Below are positions 35,316-64,000 of a stretch of DNA of 64,000 nucleotides, one piece after another (the first letter of the stretch is position 1; each line of letters opens with the position of its first letter). The position numbers were made by a program, and so were the translations under genes. This stretch comes from Nymphaea colorata (taxonomy: Eukaryota; Streptophyta; Magnoliopsida; Nymphaeales; Nymphaeaceae), in assembly GCF_008831285.2 (NCBI RefSeq), contig NC_045138.2, positions 27,995,934-28,059,933 on the forward strand. Direction: 5' to 3'. The notes under the pieces were generated by a model. That model had not been told where the DNA came from. It ran no database searches and saw nothing but the letters and a program-made list of their open reading frames with translations.

Positions 35316-36269
35316 TAATGGAGAAGAATTAAGAAGTTGAAAAACTGTTTGGACGACATTTCTACAAAACCAGAAATTTAAATCGGAAAAATTGCTTTTG
35401 TAAATAGAATTATTGGAAAGAGAATCTCACCGTGTACTTTTATATGTCGACGTGTTTGGATGTTTGAACAATGTTCATGCAACCTTTTTTTTTTTAGGAA
35501 TTAAAATGACCCGATTCCGTGAGCACTTCCCTTTCTATCTATTTATTTATGTATTTGATTCCCCACCACAACCACAGGAAATTCATTCCTTCTCGCCATC
35601 AAGGAGGAAACAGAAAACCGGCGGACGTCCTCCTTGAAAACAATTACCCAGAAGGTTTACTTTGTTTGGATGAAAAGAAAGAAAACTAAAAGCTTTGTTT
35701 GGATAGAAGAAAAGAAAGTGAAAGGTGCTTTGGATTTCTTTGTCCCACCCACAAGCTTTTATTCTCATTTTTATTATATGTTTCCAGAAAAAAGTTCCAA
35801 AACCGTTAGAATGTTATCAGGAGCAACTGTTGCGAGGAGGAAGAAACCATCTGCAGATTAGTTTTCTTCTATTTCTTACTTTTTCATGCTATTATGTTGC
35901 AAGGCAGAATCAATCTTACAGGTGCGAAGTTTGAGGTCTTCTATTAGTTCATCCAATTTGAAAAGTTAATTACCGAATTTTCTGGAAAAAGGAAAATGTT
36001 ATTTGTCGTTTCTACTTCTTTTTATCTGGTTAGAGTTACTGGGAAATGATTCTTTAACTAAATTTCTAATGTGCAAAATAACCGATTTCTCCTTCTGAGA
36101 CACTCATATGTACAGGATATTAACCGTCTAGTATAACAATTGTTCAAAGGCCCTTTTCTTTTAGTAATGGATTTTTATCCATCAAAATAAAAAATTCAAT
36201 ATATATATATATATATATATGCGAAAAGTGAGTAAATTAAGTACAAAAATTAAAGAAGAAAAAAATAGA

Positions 36270-36990
36270 AAGAGACTACAATGGTACGCCCAAATGGGGG
36301 CCGGTACGCCGGTACGTTTGGATCTGGTTCTAATTCGAAATTAGATCCAAACCATATCATAACCAAAAAAAAAAAAAAAAACCCGACGGGCCGACGCCCG
36401 ATGCCTTACTTCTCCGTCTCGAGTTTGGTCCTTCCCTCGGCGGCGATTCTTTGCTGCGACTTTGGGCAGCGGCAACGGACGGTGGCTGGCGGCAGACGGG
36501 GACCGGCGACGGACGCGACTGGCGACGGACCAAGATTTCTACACATTTTTTAAATGGCCAAACACCCAAAAGCCAAAGGAAAATCCCCCAAATCCAGAAG
36601 AAGAAGAGAGGGAAAGTGGGAGGGAGAGAGTCATGCGGCCGGCGGCTGGTGCGCAACGCCGGGATCGGACTGGACGACGGCGAGAGAGAGAGAGGGAAAG
36701 ACTCACACGGTGCGCTGCCAGTGACGGCGGGACCCTGGTTGCCATTAGGCGACCGTGCGACGATTCGCGCTCTTTCTCTTGCTGTGGAAGGACGCAGCGT
36801 AGGGACCGAAATGAAGCAGCTTGGATCGGGTCTCATCCCTCAGGCGCACCGACCCGGGTCCAGTAAGGCCACAACTTCCACACATTTTTAGGTAAGTACA
36901 TTTTAAAAAATGGTTTTTTTAATTTTTTGAATTAAAAATATATAATAATATATAATATTCACCATAACACCGTACCATACCCGTATGACA
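36270..36990. mobile_element. GC-rich insertion present only in unit A
   Basis: Unit B is colinear on both sides of this block but lacks it. It contains a 17-base A run (36366-36382) and GGCGACGGA-rich sequence. Open frames on both strands are by-products of composition. Ends are not clearly defined and no target-site duplication was found. Confidence 0.5.
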
Positions 36991-37463
36991 TAGGAAGAGA
37001 GGAAAAAGTAAGAGCCGATGAAGAAAAGGGTAGGAAGAACCATTCTTAAAATGGAATTTTTTTCTTTTGTTTTTGTTTTTCTTCTCATGGTTCTCACATA
37101 ATTTTCCTTTATCCTGGTCTTATTTTTCTTTAATTTTTTGATGAAATTGTCATCCAAACATAAGATTACTATATCTTAAAAAATTCAGAGACTTGAAAAT
37201 TTCCTTCACTCATTCAATGTCGACAGAACCTTAGAGATGTAGCAAGTATTGAAATTAATAAGAAAAATTTGTTCTCTATAATTGCACCAAGAAAAAAGAA
37301 GCATACGTTCACTCATTCGAATCTTCCCATGCTCATCCACCAAAATACAAAATCCAATATGGGCATTGAACGAGAACCGAACCGATTCACCTGAAGATGG
37401 ATCTACTCGCATTTATTTAAGGGATAAAAGCAAAAAACCAATTGCGGCCATGGGATGAGATCT

Positions 37464-39924
37464 TCACTCCACACTCAATTCATTAATCATGTCCATCTTT
37501 GGCGCTTCAGAGCTTAAACCTGCACCGCTTGAGTCTGGGGAGAGGTCGGCTAACTGCTTGACGTTGAAGGGATAGACGTCGGACTTGGAGTCCGATAAGA
37601 ATATCCTTCTCGCGAGGATCAAGTTTGCTGCATTGGTAGGATGGCCGTCGTCGAAGAAGAGATATGTGTTTCTATCTTCACAAACACTGCCATTCTTCTT
37701 GCACTGCGCACTCGATACGGCACAACAAGGCTTGTCAACCACCGTGAGTCCTGTTAACCAGTGAAGCTTAACTCAGTCAAGCTAAGAATGGAAATTCGGT
37801 AATTATACATTATTTTACCGACAGCTATTTCAAATAGTAGATATTAAACGTTCTTCCATAGCAAGAAAATAGTACAAAAATATGCTCAAGTTTTCATGAA
37901 ATAAGAAAAACACACTTTTAATTTTTTTTTTTTTTTTTTTACCATAAAAACTCGTGGATTGAAGTGGGCTGGGGTTCCAGATGAATATTTTGTTTCAAAT
38001 TTCTTTTTTTTCTTTTTTTTTTTTAATAGAAGGGAAGTCGTTCAGTTTATCATGCTGTTCATTTTCTTCACATAACACAGAGTCTCTGATCGTTAAAAAA
38101 AAAAAAACCTGGTCATGATTCAAGGTTGACCCGGCTAAACCTAGCCATGAGTTAATGTTGGTTGAGCTTACTCCTAACTGGGCTTGACTTGACCCTAACT
38201 GGTCCATTTCAAAATATTTTAAAACTGGATAGAAGCAATGAGTCAACTCATCATCGTCGGCTCATGAACCTAATGACCTAATTATTAACTGATCGGAATC
38301 CGATTCAGAAATTTAGCAACGATGGTTCCCAGAAAAGCTGCATCGCCCAAGCACGCGAGTTAAAAGGAGGATTTCTTACACCAACCTCGTCAAGGACAAG
38401 TTTAACTGGTTCATAAAGCCATTGTTAGAATATGTGGAATCATGAAATGGAAGTGTTCGGCATACCGTAATCGGCGGGAGAATGTATCATCTCGCTCATG
38501 ATTTTGTAGCTGTTAGCAAAAACAACATGGGAGCCGGGCATGTCTCTGGTTAGCGTGTCGATTGAGGCGTTGAGGCGAATGTTGAATTGCATGGATGCCA
38601 AATTGTAGGTTTCGTTGCAGCTGCCGTCTGTAGTTGTTGATCTTGCTAACGGCGTGCAGCCACTCACCTGGATGGACAGTAACGCGAATTTCCGGGCTCC
38701 CAGACCATACAGCCACTGCGAAAAAAAGGGGAAATTTGAGTATATCTGTTCGTTTTAACTGTCGAAAAATTCATAAAATTTAGTCGAAGTTTTCGCGGTG
38801 CAATAAAAACAGGCTCAAGTTTTATTGTTTATCCAAGGATGTGGATGTTTGTCAATGCTGAGAGTGATGGGTGGTGATAAATAGACAGAAAGCTTTATTT
38901 ACCTTTAGTTGCTGCGTGAACCTGCCGAGAAGTTCCTCCGTGAATTCCGGCAGATAGCAGGCAGCTCGGAAAAAACAACCCCATACATAATCATTTCCGC
39001 CGGTATTAATCGCAAATATACTCCGTGAGAGATAAGATGAAAGATCCTTTCCAAGGAGGGACCTTAGTTCGGGCAGAGTTCTTGCCTCAAAGTTCCTGAT
39101 TTGTTGGTTGAATGGTATCACTTCCTCCTGCAACGCCAACAAACAAACAAAAGGGTTAATAAAAAAGAAGAGAGGCCCACAGAATCCACGTGCCATCCAT
39201 TATACTATGTAGATGTTGGAGTTCGGGTGCTATTTGACATCCTTCTTCTGTTAAAAGAAGGGCAATTGTGTTTTAGATAATGCCACATCAATCACGTAGA
39301 GCGTGTTTGGCAGTGAACGAAATCGCCCTTCTCTTGTTGTTTTATACAGTTGAACACGGCGCTCCACAGACACAAACAGTGGACGAGACCGGAGCAATGC
39401 GTTTGGCACACTCCAAGTCCTCTGAATTTTGTGTTTCGACCAGAATGTCCTCTTTCTGGGCGTGTCCTTAAGACAGGTAACCTGATTTGCTGCCCTCGAT
39501 CTTCGAGAATTAAAGAAGGCAAAGGCAAAAAAAGGAGCGATAATTTTACACTGAAATTGGTTGAGTCAAGAATGCCGGAAGATCCTGAAGCATAGTTCAC
39601 TCCACTTAGAATCATGCGTCCTTTGGTGCTCGGGTTAGTGAAGCAAGGTAGTAAATTGGGGACGCCCAGAAGCTGTCCAAGAACATCGGCCACTGTTTTG
39701 TCATTGTTGAACCTTCCTGTCGGAAAGCCAAAATCAACGCCGTAAGGCGGATAATTGGCTTTGGCTGTTGAACCTGCAAAGAATATATTGTTGCCATTGT
39801 CAACTAAGGAATCCCCAAAAACAAACATGGATGTGGTATTGGACGCTCCATTTTCCTCCAGGCAATGCAGAAGAGACGAGGAGCCGAGGAGGATGAAGAT
39901 GAACAACGTCATCGCTGCCATCAT
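37464..39924 (-). CDS. GDSL esterase/lipase A1 (intact)
   Basis: A secreted SGNH-fold serine hydrolase of the plant GDSL family, acting on ester bonds of lipids or wall polymers; the substrate is not predictable here. Exons: 39924..39550, 39127..38903, 38715..38466, 37750..37464. They total 1137 nt, or 378 aa plus stop, with phases 0, 0 and 1 at the junctions. A signal peptide (MTLFIFILLGSSSLLHC) precedes block I, FVFGDSLVDNGNN (Ser39). Block II is SGVNYASGSSGIL, block III is NTGGND (Asn170) and block V is FFDDGHPTNAAN (Asp317, His320). All four catalytic blocks are present and the length is typical. It is nearly identical in structure to B1 at 49122-51733, so the duplication is recent. The first in-frame ATG opens MMAAM. 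An ATG at 39912 is also possible. Confidence 0.93.
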
Positions 39925-40010
39925 TCACTTTGCAGTGTGGTTGGCAGTGCTTTGGTGTCTTTATGCAATTGGGAAGATGCAATTGTTTGTTCTCCTTCGG
40001 TCATTCACCA

Positions 40011-40020
40011 CACTTATAGG
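40011..40020 (-). promoter_or_regulatory. Candidate TATA box of GDSL A1
   Basis: On the minus strand cctataagtg lies about 90 bases upstream of the A1 start. Homology to B1 stops at about 40003, so this promoter element is not shared with B1. Confidence 0.35.
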
Positions 40021-40069
40021 GTGCCTGTTCTAGGTACATTTGACTTATCGATGCTCAAGGAAGGAGCCT

Positions 40070-41640
40070 GAATACATTTCTTAGAGCTATAGACTTGACC
40101 AGTTGTTGCCTTCTTAACAGTCTTTGCTAATTGTGGGGTCAATGTGAGCCACAGTCTGTAAAAAAAGCTTTAACGGTGCGCTGTTGGAGCTAAGTTTAGC
40201 CACATAATCTCAATCATTCGCCCTGTCTTGAGGCCCAGATTCTTTATTTCGTATGCAAACAGCACCAAAGCTAGTTGTATGCTTACATATGTCCCTGCCA
40301 GTGGACCAGATGCATTCAGTTGCACATAACCACCTCGAGCAACACCTACTTAACAACTCGTCTTTTTTTTTTTAATTTTAATAAAATGATACTAACAATA
40401 TTTTCTATACTAACTTTTAAAAAGCGTTACTTTTGAAAGAAATGCAAGAAATCGAAATGCCGTTTAAAACTTAAAAAAAAATGTGTTTTTCTTGAAAAAA
40501 AATGAAAAAAAACTCACTAAAAACACGTTTGTAACGTGCTTTTTATCATTATTATTTTTTTATTTTTTAATGCCAAATCAGTTTTTTTTTTGCAAATGTA
40601 TCTTTTCATGTTTGTGTTAATATGTTCTCAATTATTTTATTTTTCTTTATTTTCAGTTTTTTTAATTTTTTTTAAAATTACCATTTTTTTCTTGTATTTT
40701 TTAAGCGGGCCGTATCATACCCCAAAAAACAGCTCACCGTTTAAAACTCCAAAAAGTTATTTTGACTATGCAGTTTATTTATTCTCTATGCAGTAAATCT
40801 CTTGGCTATTATCTCCAGCCTCAAAACTTTAGGTACCCAAATAGAAGCCTTTAGGTAACAAAAACGGTGCATTCCAAAAATACAATGTTGATGAATCATG
40901 AATGCATCTATTTTGAAAACATATTTATGAAACACTATGTTCCAAACAATACAACCAAATGCCTGGACTTGAAACATCGATGACGGCTCGCTTAAAGGTC
41001 GTGTTGTGCCTCGAATACCAACAGAGGACATTCCAACACAGGACCCTTGTAGAAAAGAAATGGCATTTGCCACTGTAGGTGTTAGGGGGAGTGTCGTGGA
41101 TGGCGATCGCAGTCGGCAAAGCACAAATAGATTGAGCTGTCGTTTGGCTCGGAAACGTCGACGGAATGGTGGGATGGGATAAACTCCAAAACTGGGGCTT
41201 ATTCAAGCTAACGGTTGCTGTTCATGTAAGCATCGGGAACTGAGAGGAACAGTGCATCGTTTTTTGCTTTTCGTGCTCCAGGGTTGATGCCATGGAATTG
41301 TCCAAGTTTTGCTTCCTCGGTCAAGCAAGAACTCATTTGGTGGATGAAAAAGACTTTCTTCATTAAATGGTTGAGTCCATCTCCTAGACAAGAAATTATG
41401 GTTTGTGAAGGATGTAACGACCCATCGGACAAATCCCATGAGCTTGGTGAATTTCGGCAGTTGCATCCTAAGAAGGTCAGCGAAGCTACCCTTTTGTGCG
41501 CTAGCACTTACCTAATTAGCAGTCTTACCTAATTAGCAGAGTCTCGACTCTCCTGGATGTTGGTTGGTGCTTATCACAATGAATGTGCAGCCGGAGGTCA
41601 TTCAAATAGCATAAGAACTATTAGTCAGATGATCAACAAT
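40070..41640. other. Intergenic part of unit A, no gene seen
   Basis: AT-rich sequence with T-runs. The block 40290-41130 recurs in unit C at about 59400-59960 and is missing from unit B. The sequence near 41455-41510 resembles 62000-62080, the 3' flank of the GDSL copy at 61427-62397. Exon 4 of psi-A2 should lie here but was not found. Confidence 0.6.
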
Positions 41641-41652
41641 CACACAACATAC

Positions 41653-43972
41653 CATAAGAAGTTGGATCATCGATAATTTCACTGAAGATTTGACAAGTGC
41701 TAGCAAAAACGGCGTGGGAGCCAGGCATTTCACTCTTAAGACCGTCGATTGACGCGTTCAGGTGAGTGTTGAATAGAACAGCGGGGAGGTTGGAAACTTC
41801 ACTGCAGTTCCCACCATTCTGCAGTCGAGCCCCCAGCGTGCAGCCACTTGGTTGGCTGCCAAATAGCACAAATTTCCAAGCACCCCAGCCATAAAACCAC
41901 TTTAGAAATATTTCCATGAGAATCGACCACCTATACTACACCCTTCAGAGCCTAAAACAAGTTTTATGTTCGAAGCTGAACAAATTTTAATGATTTTTTT
42001 ATAAGTTTTTTTTAAAATATCCACCTTCCACCTTCTTTTTCCGTTTGATGGATATATTTTGCATGCACCACCTATGCACGCAACCGCTTCTTTAGAATAA
42101 ACAATATCCTTGTCTTTTGACAAAATGGAATGTTCTCATCTCAACGACAAAGTTTATGCATTACTTCTTCAAATTGATCTAGAGATGTGAACAAAATATT
42201 GTTTGCGGATGAGTTTTTTCCCGTATATGGTACAGTAAAGTTGAAAATCTCAGGAAAATGAAAAAAAAAACTTAAAAATGCAATGCGAAAGATACAAAAA
42301 TAAAATAAAATGCAACAATAAGAAATGCCCAATGCCAATACAAAATGCAGTCAAAAAATGTGTTTTTTTAATGTTTTTTTGACATCTTTTACTTTTAGCA
42401 TTGTTTTTCAAAAAGCTGGGTTTTTTGGGCTAACTTTTATTTGAAGTATAACGTGGGTTTTTAAGACAATGCATTTGAGTCATACTTCACAGATTCTACT
42501 TATTGCTCTTAGGCTAGAAGTTCAAGATTCTAATAAATTTTCTTCCTCTTGTCTTAGTAGAAAGAACCTTTGTGTTAACTTCAGTTGCTCAGTGACATTC
42601 CCGGTGAGTAACCGTGAAAATTCTGGCAAACAACATGGTGTTTCTGGAAACAATGAGCGGCGTAATCGTTTCCAAGACAAATATACTCCGCGGCAGATAA
42701 GAAGAAAGGTTGCTTCCAACAAGAGATTGTTGGTGTATGGAACTTGATCCATACTAGACAATCATATGTAATACTGCGGATCCAACTTCACGGTAAGTTG
42801 GTGGGTTTTGCCCATTATGTTGAGAGGAGGGCCGCAGTTTTCTGTGTCTTTTCTTCTGAGAGTGTCTGTGTTTATTTGTGAGTGAATAGTAAAGATTTGT
42901 GCGACCGTGGACGTAGGAGATTATTGCTCCGAACCACGTAAATCTTTGTCTTCTTCCTTGTTGCTTCTAACCCCCTCTTAAAAGTGCATGAAAAAAGTTT
43001 AGAGATCTCAACTCCAGCAAAGTCCCTTCTTTGAAGTTCCTGATTTGCTGATTTAGATGTATTATTATCATCTGTGAGCGCAACAGACCGAAAAAATATA
43101 TATATCTTTCCTGTTCATTGAAGACGTTAAGGAGACGGAAAAAAAATATATCTTTCCTGCTCATTGAAGACGTTAAGGAAACTGAAATCAGATTAGGGGA
43201 AGAATGGTATGAAAGTGCAGGTGCTAGAAATGTTATTTTTGGGAAACATAAACTATTTTGGGAGCAAATCAAAGCCTTAAATAAAAAATATAAAAATGTA
43301 TCATGAATGTTTTTTTCTTTTATTTTTTCAACTTAAAAAACGTCAAAGGTAATAAAAACTTTATTGAGCGAGTAGTAGAAATATTTAATTCTACCACCGC
43401 AAAATAGAGTCAAAACCCAACTCAATTTCTTGTCTCCTTAGGATGGAGGGTTTAGTGTAGCCCCGCTGTTCTTTCAACGTCTCTTTTGCATATAATTTGA
43501 TACAAAACTCGCTACCTACCCAGCCTCCACCTCACTCCCTATGACAATAAAAATGATTCAAGAAGATCGAAAACACGAGCGGGGCTAGAGATATTATCGG
43601 CGAGGATCTCCTTTACATTGAAAGTAGTCGAGTCGAGAATGCTGGAGCCAGCAGATGCGTAGTTCACTTCATTGAAAATTTTGGTTCCTTTGGTGGTGGG
43701 ATCGTTGAAACAGGGGAGTCGATGAGGGAGTCCCAGATGCTGTCAAAGAGCATCGGCCATGGTCATCTATTGGTGAACCTCTCCGTCGGAACTTCAAGAT
43801 CAATCCCGTACGGCAGAAAATTGGCCGTGGCATCAGAATCCAGGAAGTACACGTTGTTACCGTTATCAACAACCGAGTCCCCAAAGACAAACAAGGCCGT
43901 GATATTGCCGGGTGCTTCATTGAAGAAGAAGCTCACCAGAATCAGAATACTGAAAAACGCCACCCTTGTCAT
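41653..43972 (-). pseudogene. GDSL esterase/lipase pseudogene psi-A2
   Basis: A second GDSL type, related to the copy at 61427-62397. Exon 1 (43972..43617) keeps the signal peptide and block I FVFGDSVVDNGNN but has lost one base after RFTN and runs into a stop. Exon 2 (43071..42579) is split by an LTR insertion (42728-43001), has a 10-base deletion that removes part of the NTGGND block, and lost a G at its donor (aagttaac instead of aaggtaac). Exon 3 (41899..41653) is open (FVLFGSQPSGCT). Exon 4 was not found downstream. The gene is clearly dead. Confidence 0.88.
42728..43001 (+). mobile_element. Solo-LTR-like insertion in exon 2 of psi-A2
   Basis: It starts TGTTGGTGTATGGA and is flanked by gagat (42723-42727) and gagat (43002-43006). 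It belongs to the same family as the element at 56612-56937 but lies in the opposite orientation: both carry the gaaccacgtaaat word (atttacgtggttc on the other strand). Its distal end lacks the last ~20 bases of the other copy, so it does not end in CA. Confidence 0.75.
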
Positions 43973-44661
43973 GGTCTCCACTTGTTTGTATCCATGAGCA
44001 AGCTCTCCATTATTCCTTTATACAGCGTGCGATCTGATGCCAGTAGGGGCTTCATGTAGACCGCTTCTGGCACGCTCGTTACTGAATACTGTGTGGTTAC
44101 AGTGGTCCTGCCATAAGCCTAAACATGTAAGCTGGTTCACCATTTACCTACTTCTTCAGTTCAGGTCCAGTTGATTGTTTATTGGGGCTGAACATTTTGG
44201 TGGTTGAACTGATGAACAAGAGTGTTATTATTGGAGTTTCCGTGGCTAGGCTTGGTTTCATACACTACACGGGCCAATTTAAGAGACTTTATTCATTGTA
44301 AAGAGTCTAAGAGATTATTCAGGTCCGTCCAATGGTATGAGAGCTCATTGAAGTAGGGTCTGTTCACAAATCGTATCAAAGTGGGTCTAGTTTAACAGAG
44401 TAAATACTGTAATAAAACCTCCTAAATTGACAAACAAAACTTTGGTCAAACTGACTGGGTAACGCAAACTGATCAATTAAAAGTTAACCACAAATCACAA
44501 GGTGCTTCATTATTGATCATATAAATACATAAGAACTTTTCTGGGATTCCAGAAAATCCCCTTGCTTGTAAATCCATCAGAAAAATGTAGCATGGATATA
44601 AGTCTAGCTATATGAACATATCAGTACGTCTTCAATGCTTGGTAACTGTTCTGATGCCACT

Positions 44662-44850
44662 ATAACAACCCGACTCACTCTTAAACTCGGGCCTTTGGTT
44701 TGGTGAATTTCAACCCTCTCCTTAACAGTTTCGGCTCTAATCTCAAAAGGTTATAAACCAAGACAACCATTTATGGTAATGATCCTCTTTATAAATCCTT
44801 GAAAATTCCTCACAATCTTTAATATGGAACTAAATTTTTGGGGTGTTACA
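44662..44850 (-). repeat. TGTAACACCCC-type repeat, copy in unit A
   Basis: On the minus strand it starts TGTAACACCCC and ends GGGTTGTTAT. Related copies lie at 54911-55097 and 55175-55363. The start resembles a retrotransposon LTR, but no second LTR or internal region is present. Confidence 0.55.
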
Positions 44851-44851
44851 A

Positions 44852-45040
44852 TATATATACTCTACTCTAATGCAGAGAGGGGAAGAAAGAGAGAAAGAGA
44901 GCCGATAAAAATGGTAGATATATGTACTCTACTGTAATACAAAGGGGGGAGGGGGGGGAGCGAGAGAGAGAAAGAGCCGATAAAAATGGTAGATATATGT
45001 ACTCTAGTGTAATACATAGGGGAGGGAGAGAGAGAGAGAA
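44852..45040. repeat. Minisatellite, about 67-73 bp unit, unit A spacer
   Basis: Three copies, each with tactct, then a GA-rich tract, then gccgataaaaatggtaga. The equivalent array in unit B is 55365-55545; unit C keeps one degraded copy near 60600. Confidence 0.8.
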
Positions 45041-45096
45041 GAGTCTAGTAGTGCCTGCTCCCTCTTCAAGCATCCATAAGAACTCGTATTTGTCTT

Positions 45097-45362
45097 GGAT
45101 TAGAAAACTTATTTCACGAGCAAACTGCTTTGTTGCTGTGTTTCATGGTGAGAGTGATAACATTACACATAAAGAGGTGACGAACATTGTGCAAAGTGGC
45201 ATGACTAATGAACCTAAAAGCAAGGACCATGGCAAGAGTTATGAACCTAAAAAGCAGGGATTGTGGGCGGCAACTTGTCAAAACTTTAGACAACACCTGC
45301 CTGAATTTAAATTCAATAGTAGTTATTCATACAAGTTACAAACAAAAATAAAGAACCGTTAG
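45097..45362 (+). other. Conserved unidentified open frame, copy A
   Basis: An open frame reading WIRKLISRANCFVAVFHGES, then DNITHKEV, down to KIKNR and a stop at 45362. Near-identical copies lie at 55593-55859 and 60699-60869. I do not recognise the family. It may be an exon fragment captured before the array expanded, or noncoding sequence kept similar only by recent duplication. No start codon is shared by all copies. Confidence 0.4.
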
Positions 45363-45765
45363 TGTACCTCTCTATGCATGGCTTCTAACAATAAGCAGCA
45401 TTTGGCGTGATCCTCTTTTTCATTCTAATATGAGAGCTATTGTGAAAGCAGGTGGAAACCATCGAACCACATTAAAATTTGCATTGCTTTGTTCACTTTA
45501 ATTCTTTGTTGTTAAGACAACAAAGAAGAGTAAACAGAACCCCTTAGGAACAGAACAGTGGCTCCGTGTGGGAGTCATTTTATTAGAAGACATTGGTCTC
45601 ACCAGTGCGAATAAGAATAATAGCATTCCCGCAATCAGACATGCTCTAAGTGTTTTAATTTGGAAAAGAAACTGCCACAAATTACAAGAGATTGTAAGGT
45701 TGAAGCATATTTTCTGAACTGCTTGATTTGTTTACATTCATGTGGCTGTTCGTGGCATAGAGATA

Positions 45766-45960
45766 AGCAGGGGCAGAGGGAGAGGGGGCCACCTAGGCCG
45801 TGGCTCCACCTCAGTTAAGTGAAAAAAAAATTACATTAACAAAATTTAAAAAAATTTAATTGCATAATACATTTTTTGGATTTGGGTTTAGTTTGGCCTT
45901 ACCTTGATAAATTCGTTGGACCGTTTGGCCCACCCTAAAAAAAAAATCCTCGCTCCCCCT
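45766..45960. mobile_element. Possible small DNA element, GGGGGCC-type ends
   Basis: It begins near aggggcagagggagaggggg and ends with aatcctcgctccccct. The ends are roughly inverted and the interior is AT-rich. It adjoins the Copia LTR. Tentative. Confidence 0.35.
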
Positions 45961-46649
45961 TGGAGATAAGGAGATGATCTCTCAACTTCCATAAGATAAT
46001 AAAGAATCCACTATCTTTGGTAGAAGATATGATTATAAATTATCCTCACCAAGATTATTGGAATCAATCAAGACTATCGGTATCTGCTGAAGGATTCTAG
46101 TAAATCTCTCATAAAATTGTTTCCATCTTACTCTGGTGTATTCAAATTTATATAAGGAGTTGTATTCCTGCTGTAATATAGACAAAAAATAAAAAAGAAG
46201 AAAGTTCCTTTTTCTCTCTCCCGGATGTAGGCTAATAAGCCGAACCACGTAAATTATTGTTATATTCTGTTTCTTCTACGTATCTCCTGTTTCTGTCATA
46301 TACATTTTTAACATGGTATCAGAGCCAGGTTTTCCTGAGCACTTGAAGATGATTCTTCGTGGGGATCTGCAATCGGTTTGTCACTAACATCTGCAGCAGA
46401 GAAATTCTGTCAACCCTGAGAAATTCTGGCGATAGGAGTTGCTTTCAGAGTACAGGAAGAATCTGGCGAGAATCTGTCGCTACGATGCTTGCTTTCCTAA
46501 TTTCTAAACAAAATTGGGAAAATACTTTGCCACGGTGATTCATTCTAACAATCTTGCATTCTTTAATTTATGTCGCCAATTAATCGATTCTCTTATGAAC
46601 GCCTAATTTTCGGTTGATGCTATGACCGAAAATCCAAGCATAGGGAAGT
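45961..46649 (+). mobile_element. Truncated Copia retrotransposon: 5' LTR, primer-binding site, leader
   Basis: The LTR (45961-46313) starts TGGAGATAAGGAG and ends TTAACA. It is followed directly by the primer-binding site TGGTATCAGAGCC (46314-46326), complementary to initiator methionine tRNA and standard for plant Copia elements. The leader continues to an ATG-initiated gag-like start (MTENPSIGK, near 46622). The element stops abruptly at 46649, exactly where duplication unit B begins. Confidence 0.85.
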
Positions 46650-48903: not shown

Positions 48904-49121
48904 CTTAAAACGAGACTTGAAATTTCCTTCACTCATATAATGTGGACAGAACCTTAGATATGTAGCAAGTATTGAAATTAATAAGATAAAATTGTTCTCT
49001 AATTGTAACAAGAAAAAAGTATCATACGGTAATTCTAATCTTCCCATGCTTCTCTCCCCCATGACCAAAAAAAAAAGAGATCGAAGAAAGGAACCAATAG
49101 CGACATTGAACGCCAACCGAT

Positions 49122-51733: not shown

Positions 51734-52828
51734 TCACTTTGCAGTGTGGTTGGCAGTGCTTTGGTGTCTTTATGCAATTGGGAAGAAGCAATTTTTTGTT
51801 CTCCTTCGGATGACAAACCGACCAGTCAATGATATTTTAGATTGGATTGAGGCATAAATTTCAGTATTTCGTCGTTCAAATACTCTTCTACTTCTTATTG
51901 TTGTCGCAAACACATTAATGCCTTGCTGAAAATTAAACTCATAATTGTGATTTTCTAGATAGTAGCGCCACATTGGGATTTGGGAAAGCATAATACCTGT
52001 GAAATTAATCACTTTATAGCCCCTTATTAATGGAAAAAAATTAATTTCTGGTCTCCTTGAACAAGAAGAGTAGTTGAACATGGTCGTAAACTTGCAGCTG
52101 CCTGCTTTTGGTTGTTGAAACATGCCTACTTTTGGTTGTTCAAACAAACTTGCAGAGGGTTAGGTGGGCAGAGCACGTGACCGGCTCTTGTCTAAGAGAC
52201 TTACCATAGGATTGCAAGTGTTACCAAGGTATTTCGACAACTTTATCAATTTTTCATACAGCCAATTGTATTTCCACTCTACAAGGAAGGAGCCTGAATA
52301 CATTTCTTAGAGACAGAATCTTGACCAGTTGTTTTCTTTTTGAACTCTATAAAGAGGTTGCTCGCTTTCTGTCTCAACGTCAAACATTATGCATTAGTTC
52401 TTAAATTATTCTGGAGATGTGAGCTTTAAATATTGTCAAAATGTTGTTTGCGGGTGAGATTTTTCTCGTATATGATACAGTAAAGTTGAAGTCTCAATAA
52501 AGTCTCAGGAAAATTAAAAAAAAAAAACTCCAATATGCAATGCAAAAAAATACAAAATAAAATGCAACAATAAGAAGTGCACAATACCGAAACAAAATGC
52601 AGTGAAAAAATGTGTTTGTTTATGTTTTTTTGACATTTTTACTCTTAGTTTTTTTTTTTTTTTCAAAAAGGTGGATTTGTTGGGCTAACTTATTTTTGAA
52701 GTATAACGTGGGTTTTTATGACAATTTTAATTCATACTTCACAGATTCTACTTATTGCTCTCAGGCTAGAAGTTCAAGATTCTAATAAATTTTCTTCCTC
52801 GTCTTAGTAGAAAGAAGCTTTATGTTAC

Positions 52829-53924
52829 CTTCAGTTGCTCGGTGAAATTCCCAGTGAGTAACCGTGTAAACTCTGGCTAACAGCATGGTGTTTCTGGAAG
52901 CAGTAAGCGGCGTAATCGTTTCCACCGGTGTTGAAGACAAATATACTCGGAGGCAAGGAAGAAGAAAGGTTGCTTCCAACAAGAGATGTCAACTCCGGCT
53001 GAAGTTCCTGATTTGCTGATTCAGAGGTATTACTATCATCTGCAAGCGCAACAGGAAAGGGGAAAAAAAAAACTTTCCTTTTGGTTGAGGATGTTAAGGA
53101 AACATAAATCAGATTATGGGAAGAATGGTAAAGAATGGTATGAAAGTGCAGGTGTTAGAAATGTTATTTTTGGCAAATAGAAACTATTTTGAGAGCAAGT
53201 CAAAGCCTTAAATATAAAAATGTAACGTGAATGTTTTTTCTTTTCTTTTATTTCTTTAACTAAAAAAAAAAAACAAAGGTAATAAAAACTTTGTTGAGCG
53301 AGCAGTAGAAATATTTCTTTATCCCACCAAAGAACAACAGAGTCAAAACCCCAACCCAATTTCTTGTCGAAGGTTTGCTTGGGTGCTTAGGGTGTTGTCG
53401 CCTATGCATTTATGTTCTCCTCTTTCGCATATAGAAAGTTGATGGTTCTAAAATTTGATACCAGCCTCCACCCCAGCGCCAACACCCTATGACAATAAAA
53501 ATGATTCAAGAAGATCGAAAACAAGGAAGAGTGGGGCTAGAGATATTATCGGCGAGGGTCTCCTTTACATTGAAAGTAGGCGAGTCGAGAATCCTGGAGC
53601 CAACGGATACGTAGTTCACTCCATTGAAAATTTTGGTTCCTTCGGTGGTGGGATCGTTGAAACAGGGAAGTCGATGAGGGAGTCCCAGATGCTGTCAAAG
53701 AGCATCGGCCACGGTCCATCTATTGGTGAACCTCTCCGTCGGAACTTCAAGATCAATCCTATACGGCGGAAAATTGGCCGTGGCATCAGAATCCGGCAAG
53801 TACACGTTGTTGCCGTTATCAACAACGGATTCCCAAAGACAAACATGGCCGTGATATTGCCGGGTGCTTCATTGAAGAAGAAGCTCACCAGAATCAGAAT
53901 ACTGAAGAACGCCTCCCTTGTCAT
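52829..53924 (-). pseudogene. GDSL esterase/lipase pseudogene psi-B2
   Basis: The unit B counterpart of psi-A2. Exon 1 (53924..53569) has lost one base inside the catalytic block (FVFG followed by NPLLI instead of DSVVD), so the nucleophile serine frame is destroyed; downstream it keeps the base that psi-A2 lost. Exon 2 (53039..52829) retains NTGGNDYAAY and a gtaaca donor but has a deletion before LTSLVGSNL and a later frameshift. Exons 3 and 4 are absent because the segment equivalent to 40110-42100 of unit A is deleted. Confidence 0.88.
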
Positions 53925-54910
53925 GGTTTTCACTTGTTTGCATCCATGAGCAAGCTCTCCATTATTCCTTTGTACAGCGTGCGATCTGGTGCCAGTAAGG
54001 GCTTCATGTAGACAGCTTCTGACACGCTCGTCACTGAATACTGTGCGGGAGTGGTCCTGCCATAAGCCCAGACAGTTAAGCTGGTTCACCATTTACCTAC
54101 TTCTTCGGGCCCAGTTGACTGTTTGTTGGGGCTGAACATTTTGGAGGTCGAACAGATGAATCAGAGTGTTATTGTTCGAGTTTCCGTGGCTAGGTTTGGT
54201 TTCATACACTACACTTGTCAGTTTAAGAGACTTTATTATAAAGAGTAAGAGATTATTCAGGTCCAATGGTATGAGAGCTCATTGAAGTAGAGTCTGTTCA
54301 CAAATGGTTACATAGTGGGTTTAGTCTAACAGACTGAATACAGTAAGTAAATGTCCTAAATTGACAATCAAAACTTGGTCAAACTGACTGGGTAACGCAA
54401 ACGGATTAATTAAAAGTTAACCACAAATCACAAGGTGCTTCAATATTGATCATATAAATACGTAAGAACTTTTCTGGGGTTCCAGAAAATCCCCTTGCTT
54501 GTAAATCCATCAGAAAAATGTAGCATGGATATAAGTCTTGCTATATGAACATATCAGCATGTCTTCAATGCTTGATAACAATTTTCCTGTTAACTTTCTT
54601 GTGGATGTAAGATCTCACACCTCTCGTCTTTCTCTTTGTTGTTGCTCCTTTTCTTTGTGGGTACATTTGATTACTTTATTCAGATTCGAAATCCATGGAT
54701 CTATATAGATCTGACATGGTATGATTTTGGTGATATGACAAATGAACGGTTCATCAAAGACCTTTATACATTGAGAGAAGTCAGATTTACGATCTGAGAG
54801 AGGGGAGGGTCTTATCTCAACTTAATCTCTTTCGTTATACTTCATAGTTTTGAAATGTGAATATCATGTCCATATTGTTAGTTTTATAATAAAAAAATGG
54901 TAGATATATG

Positions 54911-55363
54911 TAACAACCCGACTCATTCTTGGGCTAGAGCCCCGGTTTGGTAGATTCCAACCCGTCCCTTAATAGTTTCGGCTCCAACCTTAAAAGGTTA
55001 GGAATCATGACAACTATTTATGGTAATGATCCTTTTTATAAACCCTTGAAGCTTCCTCACAATCTTCAATACGTGATTAAATTCTTGGGGTGTTACAATC
55101 CAACCCTCTTAAGGCACGCGAGTCTACGCGTGTGGGACATTAGGTCCGAGTGTTGAAACTGTTTTGATGCCACTATAACAACCCGACCCACTCCTAAACT
55201 TGAGCTTTTGGTTTGGCGGATCTCAACCCTCCTCCTAACAGTTTCGGCTCTAACCTCAAAAGGTTATTAACCAATACAACCATTTATGGTAATGATCTTC
55301 TTTATAAACCCTTGAAAATTTCTCACAATCTTTAATATGGAACTAAATTTTTGGGGTGTTGTA
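54911..55363 (-). repeat. Two TGTAACACCCC-type repeats in unit B spacer
   Basis: Copies at 54911-55097 and 55175-55363, both on the minus strand. The second is the orthologue of 44662-44850 and the first is an additional, more diverged copy. About 75 bases containing cacgcgagtctacgcgtg separate them, as if two LTR-like ends flank a residual internal piece. Confidence 0.55.
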
Positions 55364-55364
55364 A

Positions 55365-55545
55365 TATATGTACTCTACTCTAATGCAGAGAGGGAGAGAG
55401 AGAGAGAGAACCGATAAAAATGGTAGATATATGTACTCTAGTATAATATAGAAGGGGGGGAGAGAGAGAGAGAGAGAGCCGATAAAAATGGTAGATATAT
55501 GTACTCTAGTGTAATACATAGAGGGAGGGAGAGAGAGAGAGAGGA
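55365..55545. repeat. Minisatellite, unit B spacer
   Basis: Three copies of the same tactct / GA tract / ccgataaaaatggtaga unit as in unit A, with different GA-tract lengths. Confidence 0.8.
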
Positions 55546-55592
55546 GTCTCCTGCTCCCTCTTCAAGCATCCATAAGAACTAGTATTGGTCGT

Positions 55593-55859
55593 TGGATTAG
55601 AAAACTTATTTCACGAGCAAACTGCTTTGTTGCTGTGTTTCATGGTGAGAGTGATAACATTACACATAAAGAGGTGACAGACATTGTGCAAAGTGGCATG
55701 AATAATGAACCTAAAGGCAAGGACCATGGCAAGAGTTATGAACCTAAAAAGCAGGGATTGTGGGCGGCAACTTGTCAAAACTTTGGACAACACCTGCCTG
55801 AATTTAAATTCAATAGTAATCGTTCATACAAGTTACAAACAAAAATAAAGAACCGTTAG
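55593..55859 (+). other. Conserved unidentified open frame, copy B
   Basis: The same frame as at 45097-45362 (WIRKLISRANCFVAVFHGES to KIKNR), with a few substitutions and the same stop position at 55859. No family is recognised. It lies between the minisatellite and the unit B/C junction. Confidence 0.4.
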
Positions 55860-56611
55860 TGTATCTCTCTATGTATGGCTTCTAACAGTCATTCTAATAT
55901 GAGAGCTATTGTGTATGCAGGTGGAAACCATCAAAGCACATTAAAATTTGCACTGCGTTGTTCACTTTAATTCTTTGCTGTTAAAGACAACAAACAAGCA
56001 TAAACAGAGGCCCTTAGGAACAGAACAGAGGCACTCCGTGTGGGGGCCTTTTTATTGGAAGACATTGATCTCACCAGTGCGAATAAGAATAATAGCATTC
56101 CCGCAATCAGACATGCTTTTGGCCGGTTAATTTTGGAAAAGAAACTGCCACAAATTACTAGAGATTTTGCGGTTGATGGAGGTGGGATTTACCTGTTAAT
56201 AATGGATTTTTATTTTTGGCCATCCCCCAAAATACAAAATCCAATATGGACATTGAACGCGAACCGATTCACTTGAAGATGGATTTACGCCGATTTATTG
56301 AATGGATAAAAGCAAAACCAATTGCGGCCATAGGATGAGATCTTCATTCTGCACTCAATTCCTCAATCATGTCCATCTTTGGTGCTTCAGAGCTTAAACC
56401 TGCATCGCTTGAGTCTGGGTAGAGGTCGGCTAAGTGCTTGACATTGAATGGATAGACGTCGGACCTGGAGTCCGATAAGCACATCCTTCTCGCAAGGATC
56501 AAGTTTGCTGCATTGGTCGGATGGCCTCCGTCAAAGAAGAGATATGCCTTTCTATCTTCACAAATACTGCCATTCTTCCTGCACTTTCTAACCGGTACGG
56601 CACAACAAGGC

Positions 56612-56937
56612 TGTTAGAAACAACACAGAATAAACTCTCCTCTCGCATTTTTAAGAAGGGGTTAGAAACAATAAGAAAGAAGACAACGATTTACGTGGTT
56701 CGGAACAAAAATCTCTTACGTCCGCGGTCGCACAGATCTCTTGTATTCTCTCACTTCTATGAACACACATAACAGACACTCTCAAGCGGCGGCCATCCTC
56801 AAAACATAAGGATTAGGGCAAACCCGCATTTGTACAAAATGACATATATACCCTTACATAAAGAAAAAATGAGTGTGTCGGCGGTATTATAAATGAGTGT
56901 CTAGTATGGATCAACTTCCATACACCAAACACCAACA
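56612..56937 (-). mobile_element. Solo LTR (326 bp) in exon 4 of psi-C1, perfect 5-bp TSD
   Basis: It starts TGTTAGAAAC and ends CACCAACA, so it has TG...CA ends. Both flanks carry aaggc (56607-56611 and 56938-56942). A1 and B1 have the uninterrupted sequence here. No internal region or second LTR remains. Orientation is assigned from the related copy at 42728-43001, which lies the other way round, and is uncertain. Confidence 0.93.
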
Positions 56938-57552
56938 AAGGCTTGTCAACCACCGTGAGTCCTGTTAGTTAGTAAACATCAACTCAATCAAACTAAGAAT
57001 GAAAATTCGGTAATTATACATGTTTTTACCTACAGCTGTTTCAAAGAGTAGATATTAAATGTTATTCCGTAGCAAAAAAAGTTTACAAAAAATATGCTCA
57101 AGTTTTCATGAAATAAGAAAAACACACTTTTAAGTGTTTTTTTTTTACCAAAAAAAAAAAACTCGTGGATTGGAGTAGACTGGGTTCCAGATGAATATTT
57201 TGGTCGAGTCATTTTTTCAAATTCCATTTTTTTTTTATAGAAGGGAAGTCGTTCGGTTTATCACGTTGTTCATTTTCTTCACATAACACAGTCTCTCATC
57301 GTTAAAGAACCTCGTCACTATTCAAGTTTGACCCGGCTAAACCTAGCCATGAGTTAAGGTTGGCTGAGCTTACTTGACTCGGCTTGAGTCCACCCTAACT
57401 CACCCGATTCAAACTATTTTAAAACTCGATCGAATCAATGAGTCCACTCACAGTCGACTCATGAACCTAATGACCTAATTATTAACTGATCAGAATCCGA
57501 TTCAGAAATTGACCAACTCTGCTTCCCAAGAAAGCTGCATCACCCAAGCAGG

Positions 57553-58101
57553 TAGGGGTGCACAACGAGTCGAGTTACACAATGAGTCGAGTTACTCGAA
57601 CTCGACTCGTTAGTGTAAACGAGCTGCTTCATTAGTTAAACGAGTCGAGTTCGAGTTCACGAGTCAACTCGTTTAACTAATCGAGTCGAGCTCGAGTTCA
57701 CTTTGCGAACTCGTTAAAGCTCGACTCGGCTCGATTAACATACCGGTTTTAAAAAAACCGGTTCACTAGTCACGACTCACTTCTTCTCAAACGAGTTAAA
57801 CGAGTCGAGCTCGACTATTGGTTTAATTCTTAAACGTTAAACGAGTTAAACGAGTCGAGCTCGACTAAACGAGTCGAGCTCGACTAAACGAGTTAAATGA
57901 GTCGAGCTCGACTATTGGTTTAATAATTAAATGTTAAACGAGTTAAACGAGCCGAGCTCGAGCTCGACTATGTATAGTCGAGTCGAGCTCGAGCTCGTGT
58001 TAGGAACTCGACTCGAGTTCGAGTTCAAGCTCAAGCATTTCGAGCCGAGTCGAGTTCGAGCTGGGCGAGCTCGAGCTCGACTCGGCTCGTGTGCAGCCCT
58101 A
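57553..58101. mobile_element. GAGTCGAG-rich hAT-type MITE (549 bp) with perfect 8-bp TSD
   Basis: It starts TAGGGGTGCACAACGAG and ends CTCGTGTGCAGCCCTA. Both flanks carry caagcagg (57545-57552 and 58102-58109). The interior is an unusual array of gagtcgagctcgact and aaacgagtt words, many of them locally self-complementary. It is inserted in the last intron of psi-C1; the A1 and B1 introns lack it. Confidence 0.94.
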
Positions 58102-58118
58102 CAAGCAGGCGAGTCTCA

Positions 58119-58335
58119 CCCGACGCTCTCACACAGCAGCCCATGAAGCCCGCACACGTTGCTGGACACGATGGCCAGCACCTCTATTTATAGGCAACAA
58201 GTCGACGGTGGAAAATTTCACAAGTTTCTATTCTTTTTATTTTTCTTTTACTTTATTTTATTTTTAATCACTAGTTTTTCATTACCACCGACTTGCAACT
58301 CCTTTTACGAGCAAGAGTTGGAGGTTTCGGAGATT
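58119..58335. other. Extra sequence in psi-C1 intron, origin unknown
   Basis: About 215 bases absent from the A1 and B1 introns, lying right after the MITE. It contains a TATA-like ctctatttatag and an AT-rich tail. No ends or target-site duplication were recognised. Confidence 0.45.
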
Positions 58336-59134
58336 TAAAAGGAGGATTCCTTACTCCAACCTCCGTCGAGGACAAGTTTAACTGGTTTAATAAAGTCATT
58401 GTTAGAATATGTGGAATCTTGAGACGGGAGTGTTCTGCATATCGTAATTGGCGGGAGAATGTATCATCTCGCCGATGATTTTGTAGCTGTTAGCAAAAAC
58501 AAAGTGGGAGCCGGGCATGTCTCTGGTTAGCGTGTCGATTGAGGCGAGTGTTGAATTGCATTGATGCCAAATTGTAGGTTTCGTTGTTTTATACAGTGGA
58601 ACACGGCGCTCCACAAACATAAGCAGTGGACGAGGCCGGAGCTTGGCGCTTGGTACACTCCAAGTCCGCTGAATTAGGCGTTTCGACTAGAATGTCCTCT
58701 TTCTGGGCGTCCTTAAGACGGGCAACTTGATATGCTGCCCTCGATCTTCGAGAAATGAAGAAGGCAAAAAAAAAGAGCGATAATTTTACACTGAAGTTAT
58801 TTGAGTCAAGAATGCCAGAAGATCCTGAAGCATAGTTCACTCCACTTAGAATCATGGGTCCTTTGGTACTCGGGTTAGTGAAGCAAGGAAGTAAATTGGG
58901 GACGTCCAAGAACATCGGCTACTGTTTTGTCATTGGTGAACCTTCCTGTGGGAAAGCCAAAATCAATGCCATAAGGCGGATAGTCGGCCTTGGCTGTTGA
59001 ATCTGCAAAGAATATATTGTTGCCATTGTCAACTAACGAATCCCCAAAAACAAACATGGATGTGATATTGGACGCTCCATTTTCCTCCAGGCAATGCAGA
59101 AGACACGAGGAGCTGAGGAGGATGAAGATGAATG

Positions 59135-60029
59135 ACAACCCGACCAGTCAATGATATTTTAGATTGGTTTGAGGCATAAATTTCAGTATTTTGTCATTCA
59201 AATACTCTTCTACTTCTTATTGTGGTCGCAAAAACGTTAATGCCTTGCTGAAAATTAAAATCATAATTGTGATTTTCTAGACAGTTGCGCCACATTGGGA
59301 AAATGTCGATTAGAAGATTGTGTGGTGAATGACAAAATTGTAATTTTAGTGCTCAACCACCTGCCTTTGGGTACGAATTATTTATTTCCTAAACTACCAA
59401 ACCTGGTTATATGCACAAGCGATACACTGGCCCATATAAATGCCAATGGACCAGCGGACCAGCACTTGTACACCTCGCGCAGCACCTACTTAAGAACTTG
59501 TCTTCGTTTTTTTTTTTAATAAAATAGTACTAACTATTTTTTTATACTATTTTTATTCTCTATAGCAGTAACTCTCTTGGCTATTATCTTTGGCCTAAAA
59601 AATTTACGTATGCACATAGGGGCCTTTTAGATAACAAAAAAGCTGCATTCAAAAATACAATGTCGGTGAATGTGTCCATTTTGAGGACATGAAACATTAG
59701 GTTCCAAATGCCAGGACTTGAAACATCGATGACTGATCGCTTAAAGGTCGTGTTGTGCATCGAATACCAACAGAGGACCCATGTAAAAAATGAGGACATT
59801 CCAACACAGGACCCTTGTAGAAAAGAAATGGCATTTGCCACTGTAGGTGTTAGGGGGAGAAAGGGAGTGTCTTGGATGGCGATTGCAGTCGGCAAAGCAC
59901 AAATAGATTGGGCTGTGCAAGGCGGTCGGCAAAGCACAAATAGTATGGATCCTTCACACTTGAGATCCTTGTTTTACCCTTATGGAATGAGAGAAGGCAG
60001 ATTTGAGGTCTGGGAGGGGAGGGTCCTAC
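59135..60029. other. Intergenic part of unit C, no gene seen
   Basis: The region 59135-59290 matches the extra sequence upstream of B1 (51808-51970), and 59400-59960 matches unit A 40290-41130. Open frames here recur in unit A on both strands but have no recognisable domain. Near 59925 a short duplication of cggcaaagcacaaatag is present. Confidence 0.6.
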
Positions 60030-60484
60030 TGTTGGGATTTCTCCCCATAACGCATATACAAAACCAAACGTATATATCCTAAACAGGATCATGCTCTTGC
60101 TAAATCATTGAAATAAACGAAACCTTAAACTGAAGCGGAAGCGTACCTGAATCCATCTGATCTGGAGCACGGGAAGATCGCAGTAGGGTCTTACATGGTA
60201 CGTGCGGCGTGCTTGAGGTCTCTCTCAGATGGAGAAGAGGAAAAACCCTAGAAACCAATGTCCCCAAGGACCACTACCATTTTATAATAAGGACAATTAC
60301 GGATTTCACCCATCAAAGAGTCCGTAATTCCGTACTGGTATCTATACATTTCAAAATTACCCCATACCATCTAAAATGACGTAATATCCCAAAACGCAAT
60401 CACTTAAGCGGATATTTACGTTAAGACAACCATAATGTCTGAAATTCCTTATAGACATATGTCGGCCCACCAAATGATCTTACA
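60030..60484. mobile_element. Solo LTR (455 bp) in unit C
   Basis: It starts TGTTGGGATTTCTCC and ends GATCTTACA. The flanks are cctac (60025-60029) and cttac (60485-60489), matching at 4 of 5 positions. Unit B has the unoccupied site near 54810 (gggagggtcttatctcaac). It is a different family from the LTRs at 42728 and 56612. Confidence 0.82.
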
Positions 60485-60698
60485 CTTACCTCAACTTATC
60501 ATGTTTCGTTAATAGTTTCGAAATGTGAATATCTTGTCCATATTGTTAGTTTTGTAAATAAAAAAAAAAAAGAAAAAAAAAAGAAGAAGAGAAAGGTAGG
60601 TAAGTATATCTAGTGTAATACAGAGAGAGAGAGCAGTCTAGTAGTGCCTGCTCCCTCTTCAAGGATCCATGTCTAACTCTAGAATTCGTATTTGTCGT

Positions 60699-60869
60699 TG
60701 GATTAGAAAACTTATTTCACGAGCTAACTGCTTTGTTGCTGTGTTTCATGGTGAGAGTGATAACATTACACACAAAGAGGTGACAGACGTTGTGCAGACA
60801 GACGTTGTGCAGAGTGGCATGAGTAATGAACCTAAAAGCAAGGACCATGGCAAGGATTGTGGGCGGTAA
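60699..60869 (+). other. Conserved unidentified open frame, copy C (rearranged)
   Basis: The same start, WIRKLISRANCFVAVFHGES, with a clean 15-base in-frame tandem duplication (TDVVQ twice) and then a deletion of about 21 bases, after which it ends at 60869. In this copy an ATG at 60669 opens the frame. Confidence 0.4.
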
Positions 60870-61426
60870 CTTGTCAAAACTTTGGAAAAGACCTGCCTGA
60901 ATTTAAATTCAATAGTAATTATTCATACAAACTACAAACAAGAATGAAGAACCGTTAGTGTACCACTCCATGTATGGCTTCTAACATTAAGCAGCATTTA
61001 GTGCGATCCTCTTCTTCATTCTAATATGAGAGCTATTGTGGACGCAGGTGGAAACCATCGAACCACATTAAAATTTGCATTGCTTTGTTCACTTTAATCC
61101 TTTGCTGTTAAAGACAACAAAGAAGCATAAACAGAGCCCCTTAGGAACAGAACAGAGGCACTCCATGTCGGAGTCATTTTATTAGAAGACATTGGTCTCA
61201 CCAGTGCGAATAAGAATGAAAGCATTCCCGCAATCAGACTTGCTCTAAGCGGGTTAATTTGGAAAAGAGACTGCCACAAATTACAAGAGATTGTAAGCCT
61301 GACGCATATTTCCTGAACTGCTTGATCTGTTCAAATTCATGTAGTTACTTCTAAACGACTTTATAGCACATGTTTCAATAATAGACCTAAAATCCTGATT
61401 GAAGCAACCTATTGTAAATGGAGGCT

Positions 61427-62397
61427 TTACTGCACTTCCATCTCAATTACATCCCTTGATGCATCAGAAATCAAACCAGGATGTGTAAAGTCTGCATCCA
61501 GGTCAGATAACTGCTTGACATTAAAGGGATAGGCGTATGACTGCACGTCTGATGAGTAAATCTTTGAGGCTAATATCTCGTTTGCTGCATTTGATGGGTG
61601 GCTTCCATCGAAGTAAAGATACGTGTTTCTGTCTGCACAGGCACTGCCATTTCTCTGGCACAGGCTGCCCTGAGAGTCTGCCGACACAGCACAGCATGGT
61701 TTGTCGATCACTTCAAAACCTGGCGACAAACAAATACAGAAAGTAAAATAACAAACTAAATTTTGCACTGCAGCAACATGCGTGGCATATTGAAACAGAA
61801 TATGAAGTAAAGTAGCATGTAAGATTGATTTATCAACAATATAGTGAAAAGAAGCAAATCAAGGTGAGATTCTCAGCTGTAAGGTCTTACTCATCTGGAG
61901 AGCAACAAAAACTCAGCTTAGCTTGCCAAGTTTAGCAACTTAATATTAACTCAAACTCTTCCCTGGATATGCAAATTCAAACGAGTGAATCCCCATCAGC
62001 TTGGTGAATTTGGCAGTTGCCCGCCGAGAAGGAGATTCAAAGTTAGCTAGCCCTTTGTGCGGCTAGCACTTAATTTATAATAGTGAGTGAGCAGCCGCAG
62101 GTCATTCACATAGCATAAGAATCATTAGCTAAATCAGAAATAATGTATACCATAAGAAGCTGGATCAGCGATAATTTCACTGAGCAATTCATAAGTGTTA
62201 GCAAACACAAAGTGGGAGCCTGGCATTTCACTCGTAAGGCCGTCGATTGAATCGTTGAGGCAAGTGTTAAATAAAATAGCAGCGAGGTTGAAATCTTCAC
62301 TGCAGTTTCCACCATTTCGCAGTCGAGCTCCTGGCGTGCAGCCACTTGGTTGACAGCCAAACAACACAAATTTCCGAGCACCCAAGCCATACATCCA
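61427..62397 (-). CDS. GDSL esterase/lipase, last two exons only
   Basis: Exon 3 (62397..62151) and exon 4 (61719..61427) of a GDSL gene of the psi-A2 type. They join in phase (247 + 293 nt, 180 codons including stop). Exon 3 carries ARKFVLFGCQPSGCT and exon 4 carries block V, YFDGSHPSNAAN (Asp and His of the catalytic dyad), then NVKQLSDLDAD and a stop. The acceptor tacag and donor gtatac look normal. Exons 1 and 2, with the serine and the NTGGND block, are not found in the remaining 1.6 kb, so the gene is either 5' truncated or has a long intron running past the window. It is the only member of its type here with an exon 4. Confidence 0.7.
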
Positions 62398-62559
62398 CTG
62401 TAGAAAGATTCAGGAGACAAATGTAAGCACTCCTTTGAATGCAATTGCTCTAGGCTTAGGTCACATCTGTCTATCCCGGGTATGGCAAAGCAGGTGTTAT
62501 GTTTGAGGATGAACACAATTAATGTGCTGGGGTCTGTCAACATACAAAAATTGTTCTAC

Positions 62560-63200: not shown

Positions 63201-63204
63201 GGAT

Positions 63205-63851: not shown

Positions 63852-63882
<31 letters not shown>

Positions 63883-63890
63883 GATAAAAT
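63205..63890. repeat. GA-rich low-complexity region with 64-bp direct repeat
   Basis: Several GAGA runs (for example 63851-63878) and an AT run (63686-63703). Two adjacent 64-base copies at 63447-63510 and 63511-63574 both start agctctc and end aatttgaag or the like. A diverged third copy lies near 63880-63940. Long open frames on either strand here arise from the repeat composition. Confidence 0.85.
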
Positions 63891-64000
63891 GGGAATATAT
63901 AACAAAATTTGAGGACAAGAGGTCCCCTAAATATAAAAACAATCCGTAAAGAACAAAATTACGCAAGCAAGAGGAACAAATAAACAATACAATGCACAGA

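Follow-up and report, generated by a model that had tools for sequence, protein, structure and literature searches.

Introduction

The plant GDSL-type esterase/lipase (GELP) family is known for tandem expansion. As cited in PMC7332888, Arabidopsis has 16 tandem sets of 2–9 genes, 54 of the 114 genes in rice are clustered, and tandem duplication accounts for 22 of the 194 in soybean. In the orthogroup account of PMC9602515 expansion is attributed mostly to tandem duplication, and pseudogenes were found by manual inspection. Most surveys of the family count intact genes only. The locus described below lies in a window of 64,000 nucleotides of Nymphaea colorata DNA, by which we mean the whole stretch analysed. 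Like the Arabidopsis, rice and soybean clusters, as they are summarised in that literature, it carries PF00657 genes head-to-tail with a conserved exon pattern, but it is unlike them, as far as those summaries go, in that its repeating unit consists of two unlike paralogues, one of which had apparently died before it was duplicated. We regard it as very probably a plant GELP tandem array produced by repeated tandem duplication, in the order of events proposed below.

Family membership was judged by the Pfam profile PF00657 above its cut-off of 23.6 bits, a level exceeded by the genes that we call A1 (89 bits) and B1 (90.5 bits) and by the joined exons 3 and 4 of a further copy, D (37.9 bits); a profile search with the ORFs of B1 and D that hold exon 4 only gave no match. 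Matches among solved structures were weak, the best being a Lysophospholipase A chain, 8a24 (E = 1.2e-5), which we set aside, and no plant GELP appeared by name among the matches listed. Plasmids searched by tblastn with the A1 N-terminus gave no matches, nor did the window when scanned for Rfam families and tRNA genes.

Organisation of the array

Self-BLAST of the window reveals three tandem units, A, B and C, all on the minus strand and built of collinear blocks. A reading of the sequence alone had derived three units from one segment, and this is borne out, as the blocks of A recur in B and C. Unit A (35440–46648, delimited by self-BLAST and block distances) comprises a segment L (35440–36220), the type-1 gene A1, a block I (40778–41140), the type-2 pseudogene psi-A2 and a segment R (44644–45743), between which and unit B lie 905 bp without a unit match in self-BLAST. 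Unit B spans 46649–56176 (self-BLAST), and unit C (56221–61342), which begins about 120–130 bp past the stop codon of C1, holds psi-C1, block I (59552–59916) and segment R (60622–61342). In the self-BLAST matches, segment L of A is repeated at 46649–47455 in B and is absent from C; the type-1 gene at 37188–40000 is repeated at 48912–51809 in B and 56221–59132 in C; block I of A recurs in C; the type-2 region at 42139–44646 recurs at 52372–54579 in B; and segment R recurs at 55157–56176 in B and at its position in C. No second-type gene was found by self-BLAST or tblastn between block I and segment R of unit C. The stretches that join segment L to the type-1 gene in A (36221–36989) and B (47824–48911) are unlike in sequence apart from short matches, and are probably separate insertions.

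Searching with the four A1 exons (tblastn) identified pieces of six gene copies, namely A1, B1 and C1 of type 1 and A2, B2 and D of type 2, the best match elsewhere in the 64 kb having E = 0.54. Since the E-values for A1 exon 1 are 1e-73 (B1), 6e-54 (C1), 1e-28 (B2) and 1e-25 (A2), these matches are not due to chance. The copies are tandem duplicates, some open and some dead, without apparent homogenisation, as expected of a birth-and-death array, and birth and death by duplication of a tandem segment, as originally proposed, is supported.

The window is AT-rich and plant-like. Near its left end are pieces with malectin-like and kinase domains, from malectin-like receptor-kinase genes (PF12819, PF07714), at 202–651 (minus strand), 9888–10451 (plus) and 12367–13002 (plus); these lie in opposite orientations, are 71% alike over 302–752 and 10357–9910, and form a small duplicated gene group. 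There is also short tandem repetition at 22448–22976, with copies about 89–95% identical.

Divergence among the units

Pairwise K80 values (AB, AC, BC) in the five three-way blocks are 0.226, 0.086 and 0.226; 0.141, 0.164 and 0.133; 0.078, 0.111 and 0.058; 0.111, 0.123 and 0.086; and 0.071, 0.076 and 0.087, so that the closest pair varies and none is consistently nearest. When type 2 serves as the outgroup, 7 shared-derived sites unite A with B, 6 unite A with C and 4 unite B with C, and one tree joins A1 with C1 at a support of 89, a value below the usual threshold for that tree measure. Among blocks A–B K80 spans 0.027 to 0.265, and because it varies so widely, gene conversion or misalignment is possible in some of them; non-exonic K80 is about 0.07–0.16 in most blocks. 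The two gene types are much further apart (K80 0.37–0.41 in exon 1 and 0.42–0.51 in exon 3), and A2 differs from D by 0.19 in exon 3 and by 0.30 in 74 bp of intron.

These distances bear on whether A and B could represent a single locus whose haplotypes the assembler wrongly joined, which had been put forward as the finding that would overturn the duplication history. The identical gene order and orientation of A and B would fit such an error, but there are three units in a row rather than two, their junctions, insertions and missing pieces are unlike, and the non-exonic divergence, with no pair consistently nearest, is high; differences between plant haplotypes are usually no more than a few percent. 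A run of three diverged units is therefore a poor fit to misjoined haplotypes, and with contents and junctions also unlike we consider this explanation unsupported and highly improbable.

The type-1 genes A1 and B1

A1 (37464–39924, minus strand) is an intact-looking GDSL esterase/lipase gene, and B1 (49122–51733, minus strand) an open one, both models being drawn from splice junctions, translation and PF00657. The exons of A1 are 39924–39550, 39127–38903, 38715–38466 and 37750–37464, stop included, with a product of 378 amino acids, and those of B1 are 51733–51359, 50853–50629, 50438–50189 and 49489–49122, with a product of 405. Each gene has four coding exons with GT donors and AG acceptors at the junctions, and that both read through, as had been proposed, is upheld by these canonical junctions and the open frames. 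The accompanying claim of equal exon lengths stands for exons 1–3, which measure 375, 225 and 250 nt in either gene, and fails for the last, where A1 has 284 nt and then TGA, while B1 has 290 nt, i.e., 6 nt more, and GGA at the position of the A1 and C1 stop, adding 25 C-terminal residues.

The conserved plant layout usually has five coding exons, with fused variants. Table 3 of PMC9602515 lists a layout of (1), (2'+3'), (4), (5) for OG-GELP-C10a alone. A1 and B1, with four coding exons, resemble this entry as tabulated when compared by exon number only, a likeness that we treat as a lead, as the exon fusion could be independent.

Both translations contain the catalytic blocks FGDSLVDNGNN, GGND and FFDDGHP (A1) or FFDGGHP (B1), which we take to be the GDSL serine, the GxND asparagine and the DxxH near the C-terminus, so at sequence level both keep the Ser, Asn, Asp and His; a hydrophobic N-terminus, MMAAMTLFIFILLGSSSLL, is visible by eye in the type-1 translation. 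A1 probably encodes a functional secreted esterase/lipase, and B1 probably does so, or recently did, with an altered C-terminus.

The constraint on the two genes is harder to read from substitutions. About 7% of their coding positions distinguish the two, with dS 0.132, dN 0.052 and a ratio of 0.395 (bootstrap 0.26–0.63). When C1 is added as the third arm of a star phylogeny (256 codons), dN/dS values on the branches are 0.42 for A, 0.65 for B and 0.64 for C; only the A1 branch is separable from 1, and that marginally (2 x delta lnL 3.84), and a single ratio of 0.56 for all three is not rejected. As a value of 1 is not rejected for the B1 branch (2 x delta lnL 0.86), substitutions alone do not prove that B1 has been constrained. 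Indels say more. Across about 1,134 coding bases a single in-frame indel of 6 nt separates A1 from B1, against 14.7 expected, giving a Poisson P of 6e-6, or 0.005 if one gene alone were constrained, and this scarcity argues for past constraint. The expectation is scaled from 70 events counted over 5,385 aligned bases that lie beyond the A1 and B1 model exons. These bases belong to 12 A–B blocks out of 15, one block having been excluded for overlap and two for lacking A or B; the blocks are bounded by BLAST limits, so that large indels are uncounted, and one takes in about 80 bases of the B1 extension.

It is possible, though on balance unlikely, that B1, intact in looks, is relaxed or a recent pseudogene, with A1 alone functional. 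The loss of the stop codon kept by A1 and C1, a branch dN/dS like that of the dead C1, and the changes that exon 2 has undergone in B only (GGNDYVWGCFFRAAC to GGNDFACSCFDGTAC) would all suit such a fate; however, 1,140 nt without a frame-breaking indel, a stop or a splice loss, a Poisson P that stays at 0.005 with one copy unconstrained, and the retained catalytic residues and PF00657 score weigh against it. Another suggestion is that B1 is a duplicate with a new substrate or expression pattern, A1 keeping the old one. This would draw on the 25-residue extension, if real, on the altered exon-2 loop and on the upstream sequence, where A1 and B1 are alignable only over the 76 bp before the ATG (39925–40777 against 51734–51978). 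Farther upstream B matches C rather than A (51810–51978 with 59132–59300, 94%), and the regulation of A1 and B1 may therefore differ. Even so, we hold a new role for B1 to be improbable, and keep to the reading of B1 as a gene that probably works or did so recently.

Pseudogenes and copy D

The third type-1 copy, psi-C1 (56347–59132, minus strand; self-BLAST and alignment to A1), had been called wrecked, and it is. Its start region is lost, gaps of 11 bp and 8 bp interrupt exons 1 and 3, and a deletion corresponding to A 38618–39335 removes exon 2 with the first part of exon 3, leaving intron 1 joined to a point midway through exon 3, while the type-1 stop codon TGA is kept, like that of A1. 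Exon 4 is broken by an LTR-like insertion of 326 bp (56612–56937, minus strand) with the ends TGTTGG...CTAACA and a 5-bp target duplication, GCCTT, on each side. With TG...CA ends, this duplication and no internal region, the element is a probable solo LTR of a retrotransposon, an identification that is drawn from the element ends and target duplication. Intron 3 contains an insertion of about 780 bp (57551–58331), in which direct and inverted repeats rich in GAGCTCGA predominate and which is probably a transposable element.

Both second-type copies in the units are likewise dead, as the sequence-only reading had it, through frameshifts, stops and missing exons. Psi-A2 (41651–43972, minus strand, ATG at 43972) and psi-B2 (52829–53924, minus strand, ATG at 53924), both placed by tblastn and alignment, open with the ATG and an identical signal-like sequence. 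The lesions of psi-A2 alone are a 1-bp deletion in exon 1, an element and a 10-bp gap in exon 2, and a change of the exon-2 donor from GT to TT; exon 3 is open, and a search with D exon 4 did not recover an exon 4. The element (42728–43001, plus strand) is LTR-like, antisense to the gene and flanked by ATCTC on both sides, with one end that looks truncated, and belongs to the same family as that of psi-C1 (84% over 124 bp and 88% over 51 bp). The lesions of psi-B2 alone are a 1-bp deletion within the GDSL motif and, in exon 2, a 13-bp deletion and a stop (reading C C, stop, P E F); tblastn did not find its exons 3 and 4.

One lesion is common to both, a TGA in the ancestral frame of exon 1 (43745–43743 in psi-A2, 53697–53695 in psi-B2), where CTT TGA CAG stands against CTT GGA CAG in A1 and B1. 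Because this codon is held in common, both pseudogenes are better explained by a single death that preceded the copying than by two deaths. Exon 1 differences between A2 and B2 fall 6, 6 and 8 by codon position, and over 117 codons pN is 0.054 and pS 0.068 (pN/pS about 0.8, with few changes); such near-neutral change fits a gene that was already dead when copied. The second-type gene thus most likely died once, before the units were duplicated, though this likely history is read from one common lesion and few codon changes.

Independent deaths of A2 and B2 after the duplication, with the TGA arising by parallel mutation or gene conversion, we judge to be distinctly unlikely. Each copy does carry lesions of its own, and exon 1 is less diverged than the rest of the block (21/355 against 147/1,125 differences, Fisher P = 1e-4), which is expected from constraint or conversion later than the duplication. 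Of the 147 differences, 56 fall in two 100-column windows where the alignment is poor, and these account for part of the gap but not all of it, as without them the rest of the block still stands at about 9.7% against 5.9% in exon 1. On the other side, an identical base change in an identical codon is most simply explained by common descent, and the spread over codon positions is that of sequence without coding constraint. We therefore retain a single death before duplication as the preferred reading.

The remaining type-2 copy, D (61430–62397, minus strand; tblastn, junctions, PF00657), comes after segment R of unit C, and in its exon 3 region (62075–62410) matches A2 41571–41912 at 80%. Its exon 3 (62397–62149) and exon 4 (61717–61430) are both open with GT/AG junctions, which confirms that a second-type copy outside the units keeps its 3' exons. 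Queries with type-2 exons 1 and 2 and with A1 exons did not find 5' exons in 62398–64000, where the window ends, and D may be a whole gene with a long intron and upstream exons beyond the window, or truncated, so that the earlier description of it as a partial gene may not apply. Within the 1.6 kb upstream of its exon 3 there are two 64-bp tandem copies, 98% alike (63444–63571).

Discussion

The distances and lesions suggest the following history. An old duplication would first have set type 1 apart from type 2 (exon K80 about 0.37–0.51), after which type 2 would have split again into D and the type-2 gene of the unit (0.19 in exon 3). This latter gene would then have acquired the TGA in exon 1 and died, before duplications of the entire segment produced A, B and C over a brief span, we infer by unequal crossing-over. 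Each unit would separately have lost pieces, C1 being wrecked by deletions and a retrotransposon LTR and the dead A2 and B2 decaying further, while A1 and B1 stayed open. The sharply different fates first ascribed to the copies thus hold for type 1, where C1 is wrecked and A1 and B1 are open, the openness of B1 being qualified by its lost stop and by a branch dN/dS not separable from neutral; they are an overstatement for type 2, where A2 and B2 have the TGA in common.

The locus is an ordinary, well-preserved example of tandem birth and death in a family known for tandem expansion, and it offers a readable order of events while leaving knowledge of the GELP family unchanged. What it adds is a detail, that a pseudogene was probably multiplied after its death. 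If the type-2 gene did die before the segment multiplied, duplication here yielded pseudogenes as well as genes, and, as lesions may be common by descent, counts of 'death' in tandem arrays would need correcting for them.
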